The position numbers and the translations under genes are program-made. This document shows positions 20,824 through 26,278 of a stretch of 52,353 nt of DNA, one piece after another. Every line of letters starts with the position of its first letter. Positions within the stretch are counted from its first letter, which is position 1. This DNA is from Planctomycetota bacterium (GTDB taxonomy: Bacteria; Planctomycetota; Planctomycetia; Gemmatales; Gemmataceae), in assembly GCA_016191165.1 (NCBI GenBank), contig JACPPF010000105.1:1-52353 (forward strand), read 5' to 3'. Below the pieces are notes generated by a model. That model searched no databases. It was not told the DNA's origin and was given only the letters and a program-made list of their open reading frames with translations.

Positions 20824-20865
20824 TAGGAGAGCGAAAGAACCGCCCCTTGAGTTGACGCTGGTTTG

Positions 20866-21930
20866 ATGAATCCCCTCATTCCCTTCCTTCAAGCCTCCGG
20901 GGTCGTGATCCTCGATGGCGGCCTCGCCACCGAGTTGGAGCGGCGCGGCGCCGATCTGCGCGACCCGCTCTGGTCGGCGAAACTCCTTCTCGAAAATCCC
21001 GATCTGATTCGACAAGTCCATCACGATTACCTCGCCGCCGGCGCCGAGGTGATCACCAGCGCGAGCTATCAAGCGACGATTCCCGGTTTGAACCAGCGCG
21101 GGCTGAATCACGCGCAGGCGGCGGATGTTCTACGGCTCAGCGTGCAGCTGGCGCAACAGGCGCGCGATGACTTCTTGCTCCGCTCAACCCCTGGGAGAGG
21201 GGCCGAGGGTGAGGGTGGGACGCGGCCGGATTCCGACTCCCATCTCCAGCCAGAGGTTGACGAGGTATCGGTTTCGGACACACCGCACCCTCACCCCCAA
21301 CCCCTCTCCCAGAGGGAGAGGGGAGCACGGCGCCCGGCGCTCGTCGCGGCGTCGATCGGGTGCTATGGCGCCTTCCTTCACGACGGCTCGGAATATCGCG
21401 GCGACTATGGCCTGTCGCTGCAACAACTCATCGACTGGCATCGCCCTCGCCTGGAAATCCTGGCCGCCAGCGGCGCTGACTTGCTCGCCTGCGAAACGAT
21501 TCCCTGTCTTCGTGAGGCCGAAGCGCTCGTCAAACTCCTGGCCGATTATCCATCCACACCCGCCTGGTTGAGTTTCAGCTGTCAAGACGAAGCGCGACTT
21601 TGTCATGGTGACCAATTTTCCGAGGCGGTGCAACTCGCCAATGACTCCGCCAACATCATCGCGGTTGGCGTGAATTGCACGGCGCCGCGTTTTATCGAGG
21701 GTCTCCTTGAATCGACCGCCGACGTTGCGAAGAAGCCGCTCCTTGTCTATCCAAACAGCGGGGAAACGTGGGATGCTTCACGGCAGTGCTGGCAGGGCAC
21801 GACCGGCGCGGTCGATTGGAGCGATGCGGTGAAACGTTGGCATCGCGCCGGCGCCCGGTTGCTCGGGGGATGTTGCCGCACGACGCCCGCTACGATTCGT
21901 ACCCTGGCGAACGTGCTGCGCCCCACGTGA
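20866..21930 (+). CDS. mmuM: homocysteine S-methyltransferase, with an in-frame repeat insertion
   Basis: A 354-residue cytoplasmic enzyme that transfers a methyl group from S-methylmethionine (or a related donor) to homocysteine to make methionine. The N-terminus [19 protein letters not shown] is typical, and the zinc cysteines are in VGVNCTAP and LGGCCRTTP. MmuM enzymes are usually near 310 residues. Here residues about 108-153 are a low-complexity stretch ([11 protein letters not shown] ... [13 protein letters not shown]) encoded entirely by the repeat element at 21188-21323, which falls between two helices and leaves both halves intact and in frame. Activity may be kept if the insert forms an external loop. 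The start is ATG 20866; a TTG lies one codon upstream. Confidence 0.88.
21188..21323. mobile_element. MITE-like inverted-repeat element inside mmuM
   Basis: Terminal arms CTGGGAGAGGGG-CC-GAGGGTGAGGGTG and the complementary CACCCTCACCCCC-AA-CCCCTCTCCCAG enclose about 70 bp of unrelated sequence. The right arm carries an extra CTCCC/GGGAG hairpin. An element of the same design and similar arms lies between genes at 49335-49460. It adds about 46 codons without a stop. Confidence 0.8.
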
Positions 21931-22012: not shown

Positions 22013-22945
22013 ATGATCGCCTGGCTGTGCCGATTGTTGTTCTGGTGGAAACGCCCCGCCGCGCTGGCGCCCCAGCCGGTCGCTTCACTGACGCGACTGG
22101 AGCGAATCATTCTGACCGACGGCGTTGCCCGCACGTTGTTCGAGGATTACGCCGAGCATCGCCGCTCGGCACGCGGGCACGAGGAGATCGGCTGGGTGCT
22201 TCTGGGCCTGCGGCAAGGCGATGAGGCCATCGCGCTGGCTGCTCTTCCCGCCGGCACAAGCCGCGACGCGGGCGCCGCCCATGTTCAATTCGACGCCGAG
22301 GCGCAAGGGCTGGCGAGCCGGATCGTGCGGCAACGGGACAAGCGTTTGCAGATTCTGGGCGTGGTGCATACTCACCCGGGCGATTTGCGCGAGCCAAGCG
22401 ATGGCGATTTGCACGGCGATAGCCGATGGGTCGGCGCCCTACGCGGCGGCGAGGGCGTTTTCGCGATCGGCACGGCGGACGCTCATTCGAATGAAGCCGC
22501 TGGCGCCCACGTGCAGCGTTTGGGCGACCTCTGTTTTTGCTGGTACGCGCTTGGGGTGGGCGAGCGCCGCTATCGCACCTTGCCCGTGCAGGTGACGCTT
22601 GGGCCCGACCTCGCCCAGCGCATTCGCACAGTCTGGGCCGTGATCGAGTCGAACACCAAAGCCCTGGAATACCTGTGCCGACTGTTCGCCAAGGTCGAGT
22701 TCGACATTCTCAACGATGACCCGGACAATCTCCTGGCCGTCAAAATTTCGCTCGCCGAGTCCGGTCAGCAAATTCGCCTCTTGCTAAGCACGGCGGAGGC
22801 GCGGTATTATTGGGAGAGGGATGGCGAGGTAATCGCCATCGACCCACGCGAGGAAGATTTGGTCCGCGCCGTTTTCTTGATTCTCGCGGAACTCGCCAAG
22901 GAAGACGCCCAGATAACTGAGACGCCCACGTTTGTCGAATCGTAA
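22013..22945 (+). CDS. JAMM/JAB-family metalloprotease (deubiquitinase-like)
   Basis: A 310-residue protein with the full JAMM zinc-protease signature: a glutamate in GHEEIGWVLLG (Glu57/58), then HTHP (His119, His121), seven residues, Ser129, two residues and Asp132. This E...HxH(x7)S(x2)D set is what active JAB isopeptidases need. Residues 1-20 are hydrophobic/aromatic and could touch the membrane. A C-terminal region (about 195-300) with an LLLSTAEARYYWERDG stretch is extra to the core and unassigned. It is followed closely by a small gene, an E2-like gene and an E1-like gene, so the likely job is to process or remove a conjugated modifier or substrate of that system. Confidence 0.88.
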   Translation: MIAWLCRLLFWWKRPAALAPQPVASLTRLERIILTDGVARTLFEDYAEHRRSARGHEEIGWVLLGLRQGDEAIALAALPAGTSRDAGAAHVQFDAEAQGLASRIVRQRDKRLQILGVVHTHPGDLREPSDGDLHGDSRWVGALRGGEGVFAIGTADAHSNEAAGAHVQRLGDLCFCWYALGVGERRYRTLPVQVTLGPDLAQRIRTVWAVIESNTKALEYLCRLFAKVEFDILNDDPDNLLAVKISLAESGQQIRLLLSTAEARYYWERDGEVIAIDPREEDLVRAVFLILAELAKEDAQITETPTFVES

Positions 22946-22970
22946 TCACCAGATCGAAGGGAGAAGACAG

Positions 22971-23153
22971 ATGGACTTTCGACCCCTGCAAACCGAAGAA
23001 CGCAAAAAGCTGATCGACGCCTTGCGCGGCAACGCCGAGGACAACCTCGCCATCCTGATGGATCGCCGCGACACGTCATTTTTGGGCGCCAGCGAAGAGG
23101 TGAGCGACGAGGAAGTTATCTCCGCGATCCAGTCGGTGCCGTGTCATTATTGA
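22971..23153 (+). CDS. 60-residue orphan protein of the JAB-E2-E1 operon
   Basis: A 60-residue acidic protein (starts MDFRPLQTEERKKLID, ends SAIQSVPCHY) with a GAAGGGAGAAG ribosome site, 25 bases after the JAB gene. I do not recognise it. Predicted by eye: two amphipathic helices (about 8-32 and 43-55) joined by a loop, with one cysteine at 58. It lacks a Gly-Gly end and does not look like a beta-grasp ubiquitin fold. Its position between the protease and the E2 makes it the best candidate for the modifier, the substrate or a precursor peptide of the operon. A role as a small partner of the E2 or E1 is the alternative. Confidence 0.75.
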   Translation: MDFRPLQTEERKKLIDALRGNAEDNLAILMDRRDTSFLGASEEVSDEEVISAIQSVPCHY

Positions 23154-23193: not shown

Positions 23194-23619
23194 ATGCCCC
23201 TTCTCGACACCGAAGCCGGCAAACGGCGGTTGCTCACCGTCGAGATCCCGGTTCTGGAACGCTACAACCAGGATCGCGCGGACGATTTCAAGATCAAGGT
23301 CGTCAAGCACGCCGGAACGCTGCTTTTGCGCTATCGCCTCAAGCCAATGCACAACGTGTACGAACTCGAAACGCGCCTGCCGGCGGACTACCCGACGATC
23401 CCGCCGGAAACGCGCGTGATCACGTTGCTGGATTTCTGCCCCCACTTGCTCGATGGCCAGGTCCTTTGCATGTGGAAGCAAGGGAGCACGCGTGAAACGA
23501 GCCGATGGGACCCCGCGAAGTTCACCTGCGTGTTCGCTGTGCAGGCCGCCTGGCGCTGGCTGGCGTGTTACGAGGTGTGGCGCGACACGGGCGATTGGCC
23601 GCTGCCCGACGCCAAATGA
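23194..23619 (+). CDS. E2-like ubiquitin-conjugating (UBC-fold) protein
   Basis: A 141-residue protein with the hallmarks of bacterial E2-like proteins: a beta-meander ending in YELETRLPADYPTIPPETR, a His in CPHLLDGQ (His84), the candidate catalytic cysteine in GQVLCMW (Cys92), a downstream Trp (SRWDPA) and a helical C-terminus AAWRWLACYEVWRDTGDWP. The LPxxYPxxPP proline stretch followed by H...G..LC is the E2 arrangement. It would accept an activated protein from the E1 as a thioester and pass it on. Predicted cytoplasmic. It begins 40 bases after the 60-residue gene, and 284 bases of repeats separate it from the E1 gene. Confidence 0.85.
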   Translation: MPLLDTEAGKRRLLTVEIPVLERYNQDRADDFKIKVVKHAGTLLLRYRLKPMHNVYELETRLPADYPTIPPETRVITLLDFCPHLLDGQVLCMWKQGSTRETSRWDPAKFTCVFAVQAAWRWLACYEVWRDTGDWPLPDAK

Positions 23620-23660
23620 TTTTTGGCCACATTACCGCGCGTCGATGAGTCTTTGACCAA

Positions 23661-23720
23661 CCCACAAGCGCAAGCTGGGGGGCTTTAGGGGCGGGCCAAA
23701 CCCCCACGCTTGCGCGTGGG
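23661..23720. repeat. REP-like palindrome in the E2-E1 gap
   Basis: CCCACAAGCGCAAGCTGGGGG and CCCCCACGCTTGCGCGTGGG are near-complementary arms around a G-rich loop of about 20 bases. It could act as a partial terminator inside the operon. Confidence 0.65.
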
Positions 23721-23754
23721 CCTGGCGTTCCTCCGCTTGACGAATGGTATTGCG

Positions 23755-23850
23755 TTTGGAGTGCCAGGAACAATGAATGTAGGTCAGGCTTTCCAGCCTG
23801 ACGGTCAGGCTTTCCAGCCTGACCTACTTCATTTCTTTGGACCGTCTTGG
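23755..23850. mobile_element. MITE-like palindromic element, copy 2
   Basis: The core GTAGGTCAGGCTTTCCAGCC...CAGCCTGACCTAC (23779-23827) and the flanks GGAGTGCC-AACAATGAA and TTCATTTCTTTGGAC match the element at 6884-6977. It lies in the gap between the E2 and E1 genes. Confidence 0.75.
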
Positions 23851-23902
23851 CAACGCGGCTTGCTCCGCGCGGGCCAAGGCCTGCGGCTAAAATAAAGGGG
23901 AA

Positions 23903-24712
23903 GTGCCATTGTCCCACCTCTTTCAGGTTGGCGCCGGCTCCGGCGGCATGACGGTGCTGGATGTCGTTTGCCGCGATCCTCGTATCTCGCGCGTCACGCT
24001 CATCGAACCGGATGAGTACAAACCGCACAATGTTGTGAGGCATCTTTTTCCGCCGTCCGCGGTCGGTTCCAAGAAGTCCAACCTTGCGGCCAAGTGGCTG
24101 GAGGAACGCCGCCCGGATTTGAAACTGCAACTTCTCCATTGTAGCTTGATGAGCCCGTTGCACGCGGCGAAGATCGAAGCCGCGGCCCAGGCGTGCGACC
24201 TCGGGGTTTGCGCCGCGGACAACGAGGCGGCGAAGTTTCATTTCGATTTGCTCATGCGTCGTTTTCTCAAGCCGTGGACGCTCGGCGAGGTGCTCGCGGG
24301 GGGCATTGGCGGGTTTGTTCACTGGTTCGCGCCGGGTGGCCCGTGTTATGGGTGCGTGGCCAGCTTCCTGCGCCGGACGGTGCAGGCCGACACCAGCAAA
24401 CCGCCCGATTACGCCGCGCCGGGCGGCCCGGCTCCGGAGACGACGATTCCCGCGAGCCGGGCGTCCATCGAGGTCATCGCGTCGCTTCACGCCCAGATCA
24501 CGCTGCAACTCCTGACGCACGGCGCCGGCTACGACCCGGGATTCACGAGCTTGTTGTTCACACTGGAAAAAGTCCCCGGCATCTTCGACGAGGCGTTCCG
24601 GGCCCACCGCTTTCGGATCCCCCGAGCGCCCGATTGCCTGATCTGCAAGGATTGTGGAGCGCCAGCCGATCTGGATGACGCACTCAAGAACGCGCTGAAG
24701 CGACTACAATAG
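23903..24712 (+). CDS. E1-like ThiF-family adenylating enzyme
   Basis: A 269-residue E1/ThiF/MoeB-like protein. The ATP-binding loop VGAGSGG (10-15) opens the Rossmann fold, followed by the acidic LIEPDEY, the arginine-finger stretch HNVVRHLF (Asn43, Arg46), GSKKSN (Lys57/58) and CAADNEAAK (Asp106), so the adenylation site is complete. Two CxxC pairs (CYGC at 148-151, CLICKDC at 245-251) probably bind zinc. No cysteine is found between 152 and 244, the usual region of the E1 thioester cysteine. The N-terminus begins right at the first strand, without the helical arm common in E1s. The start is GTG 23903; TTG 23909 has better spacing from the AAAGGGG ribosome site. Confidence 0.83.
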   Translation: MPLSHLFQVGAGSGGMTVLDVVCRDPRISRVTLIEPDEYKPHNVVRHLFPPSAVGSKKSNLAAKWLEERRPDLKLQLLHCSLMSPLHAAKIEAAAQACDLGVCAADNEAAKFHFDLLMRRFLKPWTLGEVLAGGIGGFVHWFAPGGPCYGCVASFLRRTVQADTSKPPDYAAPGGPAPETTIPASRASIEVIASLHAQITLQLLTHGAGYDPGFTSLLFTLEKVPGIFDEAFRAHRFRIPRAPDCLICKDCGAPADLDDALKNALKRLQ

Positions 24713-24913: not shown

Positions 24914-26278
24914 TCAACTCCTTGGCCGATCCCACAGCGGCTGGAAGTCCTCGTTCTTGCCGCGGTAGCGATGGACGGCTTCCATCAACACCAGCATCGC
25001 GCGGCACTGGGCGCGGAAGGCGTCGCGGAAACTTCCTTGCTTGAAAAGCTGGGCGGCCTGTTTCATCCGCTCCTGGTAGGTCTTCACGTCGTAGTCCCAG
25101 GCTTTGCCGCGGATCGATTCCTCCAGCGTCGTGCTCGATAGATGGAGGCGCTCATAGATGGCGGCGTCGAGCGGGCAGGCCGTCTTGCGATAGACTTGCA
25201 AGGTGCGTTCCTCCGCGGGTTCGCCGATAATCTGGCGCGATTCGCGAAAGTTCTGAATCAACAGCGTGACGATCCCGCCCAACAACGACAGAGCCGCGAT
25301 GATGAAGGCATACAGAGCCTGCTCCTTGAGGAGCGCGCTCTCGGCAGTGGTCAGGACGATGGCGACCACGGCGAGCAGGATTCCCGCCGCGAGCAGGATG
25401 AACCCCCACGGGAGCTTGCTGGCGTGATACAGCATGAGGGCGATGCGCGGGACGATCGGCTGGGCGTTTTCGACCTCGGGAAAGACGACGTCCATCTGGC
25501 TATCCAGGTTGCCCGGCTTCGGCTCGCCGCCGACGCGCATGACCAGGACGGTGGTGTTGTCCGGTCCACCCTGCAGATTGGCGAGGTGAACGAGGAATTG
25601 CACCGCTTCATCGGGCGGCAAGGCGGCCGCGACGGAGCCGATGACGCGGTCGTTCACCTGCCCGCTGAGTCCATCGCTGCACAGCAAAAAGATGTCGCCG
25701 CGCTCCAGAGGGTGCGGGCCCTCGACATCAACCTGCACCGATTCCATGGAGCCGAGCGATCGGCTGATGATGTTGGATTGAATGCCGGTGAGTTCTTCGG
25801 GGCTTTTACGTTGCTTGCGGGCAATTTCCCAGAGGAGACTGTGGTCGAAACTGAGCTGTTCGATGGTGCCGCCGCGGATGCGATAGGCGCGGCTATCGCC
25901 GACGTGGCCGACCCAGGCGCCTTCGGGGCGCAGCACGATGGCCGTGCCGGTCGTGCCCATGCCCTTGAATTCGCGGTTTTGCAGGCCGCGAGTATGGATG
26001 ATGAGGTTCGCTTCGCCAAAGGCGCGGCGCAGGGCGGCGAGGGGTCCTTCGTGAGCGTACTTGGAGAAGATGTGCGGGATGTTATCCACGGCGATCTTGG
26101 CGGCGAGTTCGCCGACGGCGTGCCCGCCCATGCCGTCAGCGACCAGGAAGACGTGGCCCACCTCGCGCCAGTGCTCGTCGTCCGCGGCGGGCATGACGAC
26201 ATGGTTGTCTTGGTTGTGGCTGCGCCGAATCCCCACGTCGGTGTGGCTTGCGTACTCAATTTCGTTGAATCCAATCAC
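24914..26278 (-). CDS. PP2C-family protein phosphatase with two transmembrane segments
   Basis: A 454-residue Ser/Thr phosphatase. All metal-binding aspartates are in place: RRSHNQDNH (Asp24), VADGMGGHA (Asp48), LLCSDGLSG (Asp202) and GGPDNTTVL (Asp240). After the catalytic domain (about 5-250) come two hydrophobic segments (about 291-311 and 321-341) and a charged cytoplasmic tail (to 454), so the phosphatase is held at the inner membrane with both ends in the cytoplasm. It would reverse Ser/Thr kinase signalling; no kinase is in this window. It converges on the E1 gene across 200 bases with no clear terminator. Confidence 0.92.
   Translation of the reverse strand: MIGFNEIEYASHTDVGIRRSHNQDNHVVMPAADDEHWREVGHVFLVADGMGGHAVGELAAKIAVDNIPHIFSKYAHEGPLAALRRAFGEANLIIHTRGLQNREFKGMGTTGTAIVLRPEGAWVGHVGDSRAYRIRGGTIEQLSFDHSLLWEIARKQRKSPEELTGIQSNIISRSLGSMESVQVDVEGPHPLERGDIFLLCSDGLSGQVNDRVIGSVAAALPPDEAVQFLVHLANLQGGPDNTTVLVMRVGGEPKPGNLDSQMDVVFPEVENAQPIVPRIALMLYHASKLPWGFILLAAGILLAVVAIVLTTAESALLKEQALYAFIIAALSLLGGIVTLLIQNFRESRQIIGEPAEERTLQVYRKTACPLDAAIYERLHLSSTTLEESIRGKAWDYDVKTYQERMKQAAQLFKQGSFRDAFRAQCRAMLVLMEAVHRYRGKNEDFQPLWDRPRS

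Follow-up and report, generated by a model that had tools for sequence, protein, structure and literature searches.

A conserved 60-residue protein encoded with E1-, E2- and JAMM-like enzymes in Gemmatales: a candidate modifier outside the beta-grasp fold

Introduction

Bacterial operons in which E1-like, E2-like and JAB genes stand together, as they do here, include BilABCD, the Bub operons and groups 6a-6e of Iyer et al. (2006), and in group 6d a gene for a small ubiquitin-like protein is present as well (available text of PMC1779556). In the systems covered by that text the small protein is a beta-grasp protein with a C-terminal Gly, whereas that of the Gemmatales operon is a predicted alpha-beta-beta-alpha protein with a Tyr tail; furthermore, the Gemmatales gene set is absent from groups 6a-6e as the same text describes them.

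Type II CBASS (Cap2 E1-E2, Cap3 JAMM and a cGAS/CD-NTase) may provide an analogy for what is proposed here, namely a co-encoded protein without the beta-grasp fold that is handled via its C-terminus. Cap2 conjugates the non-beta-grasp cGAS by this end, and no conjugation was left when Ser, Val, Arg or Trp took the place of the terminal Gly, Gly or Ala being needed (PMC10097602). The likeness extends to the E2, as CdnG-E2 is the nearest Foldseek structure to the Gemmatales E2, and to gene order, as several CBASS-like planctomycete loci have a CD-NTase-like gene just upstream of E2, in the place of the small gene. However, the Gemmatales operon has no CD-NTase or effector, its conserved neighbours being only JAMM, E2, E1 and a fifth gene; its E1 and E2 are separate, its E1 lacks the thioester cysteine and its JAMM is optional; and its tail ends in HY rather than in the Gly or Ala of CBASS. 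CBASS is also patchy in distribution, whereas the Gemmatales system is near order-wide and in single copy.

Similarly, MccA/MccB of microcin C7 may be compared by analogy, as it has an E1-like enzyme without E1 thioester chemistry and a specific C-terminal tail (putative in the Gemmatales case). There, however, the substrate is a heptapeptide ending in Asn, neither E2 nor JAMM is involved and the product is an AMP peptide; the Gemmatales small protein has 60 residues, is predicted to be folded and ends in Tyr. Pup/UBact is a bacterial protein tag of about 60 residues without the ubiquitin fold, and the small protein resembles it in both respects, but Pup/UBact has a PafA-type ligase, a GGQ or GGE end and no E1 or E2, whereas the protein described here ends in SVPxHY. 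In the UFM1 cascade the likeness lies with the enzymes: searched against the PDB, the E1 profile matches UBA5 best, and UFC1 is tied among the best E2 folds; UFM1 itself is a beta-grasp protein ending in Gly, and UBA5 has a catalytic Cys.

Our search of the open literature found no description of the planctomycete operon; subscription papers and preprints lay outside its scope, so a prior description is possible. The operon was analysed in the window, the whole stretch of 52,353 nucleotides of planctomycete DNA.

Results and discussion

The small gene and its product

The operon lies on the forward strand of the window, with these features:

22013-22945, forward strand: JAMM/JAB metalloprotease, 310 aa (E58, H119-T-H121-P, S129, D132; Pfam Prok-JAB, 7.5e-10)
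22957-22963, forward strand: ribosome-binding site AAGGGAG, by reading of the sequence, 7 nt before ATG 22971
22971-23153, forward strand: small protein, 60 aa (orthologues in 73 of 102 Gemmatales genomes; alignments; AlphaFold model, pLDDT 84.7)
23133-23150, forward strand: codons for the tail residues S55-V-P-C-H-Y60 (all residues but C58 are the same in each of 64 loci)
23194-23619, forward strand: E2/UBC-fold protein, 141 aa, invariant Cys92 in CPHLLxGQxLC (alignments; AlphaFold, Foldseek, VIA)
23903-24712, forward strand: E1-like ThiF-fold adenylating enzyme, 269 aa (Pfam ThiF, 4.7e-13; start GTG 23903 or TTG 23909)

The product of ORF 22971-23153 is MDFRPLQTEERKKLIDALRGNAEDNLAILMDRRDTSFLGASEEVSDEEVISAIQSVPCHY, and its gene occurs once in its own genome. 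The sequence-only reading had given this gene its own ribosome site, a place between the protease and the E2, and a product ending in PCHY; all of this holds, the full end being SVPCHY. Purine-rich sites likewise precede the orthologous genes. A longer start, TTG 22932, is not used, as every orthologue begins at the Met of ATG 22971. Matches were found in 67 of the 95 genomes of the family and in 73 of the 102 genomes of the order (one orthologue each), nearly all of them covering residues 1-60 in both searches, and the orthologues that were read start with MDFR and all contain SVPxHY, where x is C, S, V or T. Fifteen columns are invariant in an alignment of 31 sequences (M1, D2, F3, R4, R11, R19, T35, F37, V49, A52, S55, V56, P57, H59 and Y60), with no Lys among them; M1, R11, T35, F37, V49, A52, S55, V56, P57, H59 and Y60 are still invariant in 51 sequences, an alignment that takes in a more divergent copy starting MTFQP. 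Thus R11 and R19 of the first helix are invariant or nearly so in both. Judged by this conservation, the ORF is a genuine gene, far beyond chance. Pfam, NCBIfam and PADLOC hold no family for its product, and a sequence search of the PDB returned chance short matches only.

An AlphaFold model built on 51 natural sequences (mean pLDDT 84.7, pTM 0.58) has helices at residues 8-24 and 46-54, strands at 27-30 and 37-41 and a tail at 55-60. The small protein is therefore predicted to be a compact alpha-beta-beta-alpha mini-domain with a six-residue terminal tail. An earlier description of it as two short helices with no beta-grasp look was right on the second point and incomplete on the first, as the model adds two strands; a helix-strand-strand-helix order with two strands only is not a beta-grasp, and neither Pfam nor NCBIfam places the protein in a ubiquitin-like family. 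No solved structure compared by fold gave E <0.7, and Z was <=3.0, which is not proof of a new fold.

Co-inheritance with E1 and E2

Profile searches found the small gene, E2 and E1 in the same 73 of the 102 Gemmatales genomes (73/73/73). The trio is present in 32 of 44 genera and jointly absent elsewhere, and the genomes that carry none of it include some estimated to be 100% complete (G013, G017 and G068). A check for orthologous operons without the small gene, proposed with the sequence-only reading, found none: each genome with E2 or E1 has it. In some genomes (G001, G032, G052, G053, G094 and others) the E1 or the JAMM is on another contig, and the small gene stays just upstream of E2. 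Thus, in the Gemmatales, the small gene is always inherited with E1 and E2. The JAMM was found in a subset, 52 of the 73; the 21 trio genomes that lack it include every positive genome of one group, g7, and Gemmata records are among the matches of this group in the named contig collection. Over the 24 loci that hold all four genes, mean pairwise identity was 68.8% for E2, 65.5% for the small protein, 57.8% for E1 and 44.7% for JAMM.

Profile searches of 392 Planctomycetota gave no convincing homologue beyond the Gemmatales, weak matches being taken as chance, and a contig scan of 84,980 GTDB species gave no clear one outside the order. The matches in that scan include Zavarzinella formosa DSM 19928 and Limnoglobus roseus PX52; some of its record titles give other organisms, and these are probably mis-binned. 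A search of plasmids found no E2. One contig filed as viral (IMGVR_UViG_3300047160_030190) carries an E2 with 72% identity to the window-family E2 and is probably a chromosomal fragment.

Strict co-inheritance, and constant adjacency to E2 even where E1 has moved, count in favour of a modifier, and they also favour the main rival to that reading. According to this rival, the small protein is an obligate non-covalent subunit of E2 (or of E1-E2) that orients or activates it, with the tail docked in E2 or E1, and the true modifier is encoded elsewhere. The invariant residues at both ends (D2 F3 R4 and S55 V56 P57 H59 Y60) fit a binding surface, tails running beyond HY are tolerated, and a terminal Tyr is unlike known conjugated C-termini. 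However, a partner role would leave the cascade without a modifier, as none of the operon's conserved genes has a recognisable beta-grasp product, and the four ThiS/MoaD-like matches in the source genome are all on other contigs, one of them beside another ThiF-family gene. On balance we consider a non-covalent partner possible, if rather unlikely.

The neighbouring enzymes

For the E2, a genuine UBC fold is predicted. Its AlphaFold model shows UBC topology with the invariant Cys92 as active-site cysteine, and nearly all of the structures matched by Foldseek and VIA are E2 or UEV proteins. The top Foldseek match was CBASS CdnG-E2 (8hsb); VIA gave Z 10.7 to UFC1, which was tied among the best, with CdnG-E2 and BubCD among the matches listed.

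In the E1, the ATP-site residues G10, G12, D37, N43, R46, K58 and D106 are invariant across the orthologue alignment, as are the Zn CxxC pairs (C148, C151, C245 and C248). The thioester Cys of ThiF, MoeB and UBA5 would lie between the two CxxC pairs, yet 36 orthologues share no conserved Cys between C151 and C245, and C103 is the only further conserved Cys in the protein. The E1 profile matched MccB over 4-250 (E 2.6e-8), UBA5 over 5-150 and MoeB over 3-151 in the PDB; UBA5 is the best match, scoring slightly above MccB over the N-terminal half. The suggested likeness to MccB-type peptide modification gains some ground from the near full-length match and from the missing canonical cysteine.

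The E1 is also short at its N-terminus, beginning about 7 residues ahead of GxGSGG, and its Pfam ThiF match starts at profile position 23, so that positions 1-22 are missing. This, together with the invariant or nearly invariant R11 and R19, would fit a reading of the small protein as a split-off piece of E1 whose N-terminal helix replaces the missing segment in trans. We think this highly improbable: the L093 locus (below) has the small gene as well as an E1 with an N-terminal extension, the small gene keeps company with E2 rather than E1, and the invariant tail would be left unexplained.

In the JAMM, the motif E...HxHx(7)Sx2D is conserved over 22 orthologues, E58, H119, H121 and D132 being invariant and S129 nearly so. 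One JAMM orthologue (G100:C145:12563-13429) contains a single in-frame TGA.

The enzymes bear on a further alternative, that the small protein is a dedicated target of another ubiquitin-like protein or of a small molecule, or a peptide modified at its C-terminus by MccB-like amidation or AMPylation. The E1 profile does match MccB almost end to end, the C-terminus is conserved, and ThiF-like enzymes are known to build RiPPs (PMC12250964). However, there is always an E2 with its Cys invariant, and in most genomes a JAMM; the 60-residue domain is conserved as a whole and predicted to be folded, which a leader-core precursor would not be; the conserved neighbours include no exporter or tailoring gene; and a small protein without an invariant Lys is a poor fit as a lysine acceptor. 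This alternative therefore seems unlikely to us.

The C-terminal tail

That the small protein has no Gly-Gly end, as had been read from the one sequence, is true throughout the order: no orthologue has one, and most end in HY. The call to look for conservation at the C-terminus also found its answer, as the tail holds some of the most conserved residues of the protein. S, V, P, H and Y are constant in 64 of 64 loci although the synonymous codons vary, which indicates that selection acts on the protein and most strongly at its C-terminus. The residue preceding HY is C, V, S or T.

In 12 of the 64 loci residues follow HY (A, G, AG, AGI, AGV, GR, KL in five related copies, and AVVSGQ), so the gene product does not always have an exact free C-terminus. 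Such extensions are seen in 12 of 52 JAMM-bearing genomes against none of the 19 JAMM-less genomes checked (Fisher p 0.016, although the clades are not independent). On the tree they fall in about five groups, and JAMM loss is concentrated elsewhere. A link between extensions and trimming by JAMM is thus only suggestive: the association is weak, and shared ancestry confounds it. The root of the tree lies on a very long branch, so the tree does not tell which tail is ancestral. If such trimming were true, it would parallel the precursor processing of ubiquitin-like proteins.

A proposed role

We judge the chances to be even that the small protein is the substrate that E1 activates and E2 transfers, that is, a modifier without the beta-grasp fold. 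Several observations speak for it: the identical set of 73 genomes for small gene, E2 and E1, with the small gene kept beside E2; the invariant tail after a compact domain; and conservation of the small protein at about the level of E2 and above that of E1 or JAMM. A four-gene set of the same order in a distant planctomycete, G182, where the small protein ends in HYAGR, also counts in favour. By analogy, Cap2-cGAS and MccB adenylate capture may serve as precedents. The weakest point of the modifier reading is the terminal Tyr of most orthologues; the tail extensions and the missing N-terminal ThiF segment of the E1 also count against it.

The more specific scheme, to which we give somewhat less than an even chance, is a Gemmatales E1-E2-JAMM cascade with a 60-residue alpha-beta-beta-alpha modifier, in which an E1 that lacks the canonical thioester cysteine activates SVPxHY, and the adenylate passes straight to E2. 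The E1 would adenylate the C-terminal carboxylate of the small protein in the manner of MccB, and, because this E1 has no canonical thioester cysteine, Cys92 of E2 would take the activated tail directly. With a substrate ending in Gly, the adenylate made by MccB can be trapped by free thiols (PMC13255007), and on this precedent Cys92 would be the thiol. The E2 would then pass the small protein to an amine of its target, which may be a protein or something else. Finally, where a JAMM is present, it would strip the tag, and it may trim orthologues with residues past HY. That JAMM is dispensable (52 of 73 genomes) is what would be expected if modifier, E1 and E2 form the core.

If the small protein is a modifier, E1/E2 chemistry can, even outside CBASS, do without both the beta-grasp fold and a glycine at the C-terminus, and a whole bacterial order would carry such chemistry nearly as a core system. 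Furthermore, through an E1 without the usual cysteine, adenylation of the MccB type would feed straight into E2 chemistry. The idea is testable, because the set comprises four small genes and there are cultured hosts (Zavarzinella formosa, Limnoglobus roseus and Gemmata).

Distant loci

The G182 locus (L093/L162), found by a search of 392 Planctomycetota with the E2 profile, has JAMM, small gene, E2 and E1 in the same order. Its small protein is MGLRTLTPEEATDIRQALERSDAGGEPLRLDPAAGKLVPTGPATADRLPAVANEVGKFARHYAGR. In L093 the comparison supports homology with the Gemmatales small protein, the profile score (8.7 bits) being reached by 0 of 2000 shuffles and the global alignment (Z 4.4) by 0 of 1000. 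The E1 of L093 likewise has no Cys between its CxxC pairs.

Other candidates were rejected. An ORF just upstream of E2 in L166/L097 (G235), ending RRHGG, has marginal similarity only (Z 1.9), and for the small ORFs upstream of E2 in L094 (ending LGGEYYIEG) and L175 (ending WVFG), as for the N-terminal part of E2 in L164/L165, a similarity to the small protein could not be supported; each is a positional analogue at most. The E2 N-terminal extension in L164 (4542-5252) and L165 (3704-4354) contains DPLDV..LLT..T.KAVIT..GEL.V.G and is followed by a fused JAB-E1 protein; the extension is possibly a small module fused to E2. Four further E2 matches (L176, L180, L181 and L182) adjoin genes named CD-NTase-like by reading their sequence, and so resemble E2-containing CBASS; a patatin-like protein is encoded downstream in one or two of these loci.

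The fifth gene and the surroundings

A fifth gene, for a protein of about 390-420 aa, is the next one after E1 in 33 of 41 loci of the Gemmatales; in L031-L070 its place relative to the small gene is about +1450 to +3100. In the source genome it is displaced to another contig (G000:C86:19377-20561). Two representatives of its product were searched against Pfam with no match, and it is a candidate target or adaptor. The PP2C gene of the window (24914-26278) was rejected as a member of the system, as no homologue was detectable beside any other locus.

Two repeats were seen near the operon. E2 and E1 are 283 bp apart (23620-23902), and this gap holds two tandem near-palindromic copies of GTCAGGCTTTCCAGCCTGAC; E1 sits closer behind E2 in many relatives, so the copies may stem from the entry of a mobile repeat. 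Upstream, the homocysteine S-methyltransferase gene (20863-21930) has an in-frame low-complexity stretch at 21190-21330 with an inverted repeat of the CCCCTCTCCCAGAGGGAGAGGGG type; this looks like a dispersed repeat that has gone into the coding sequence.
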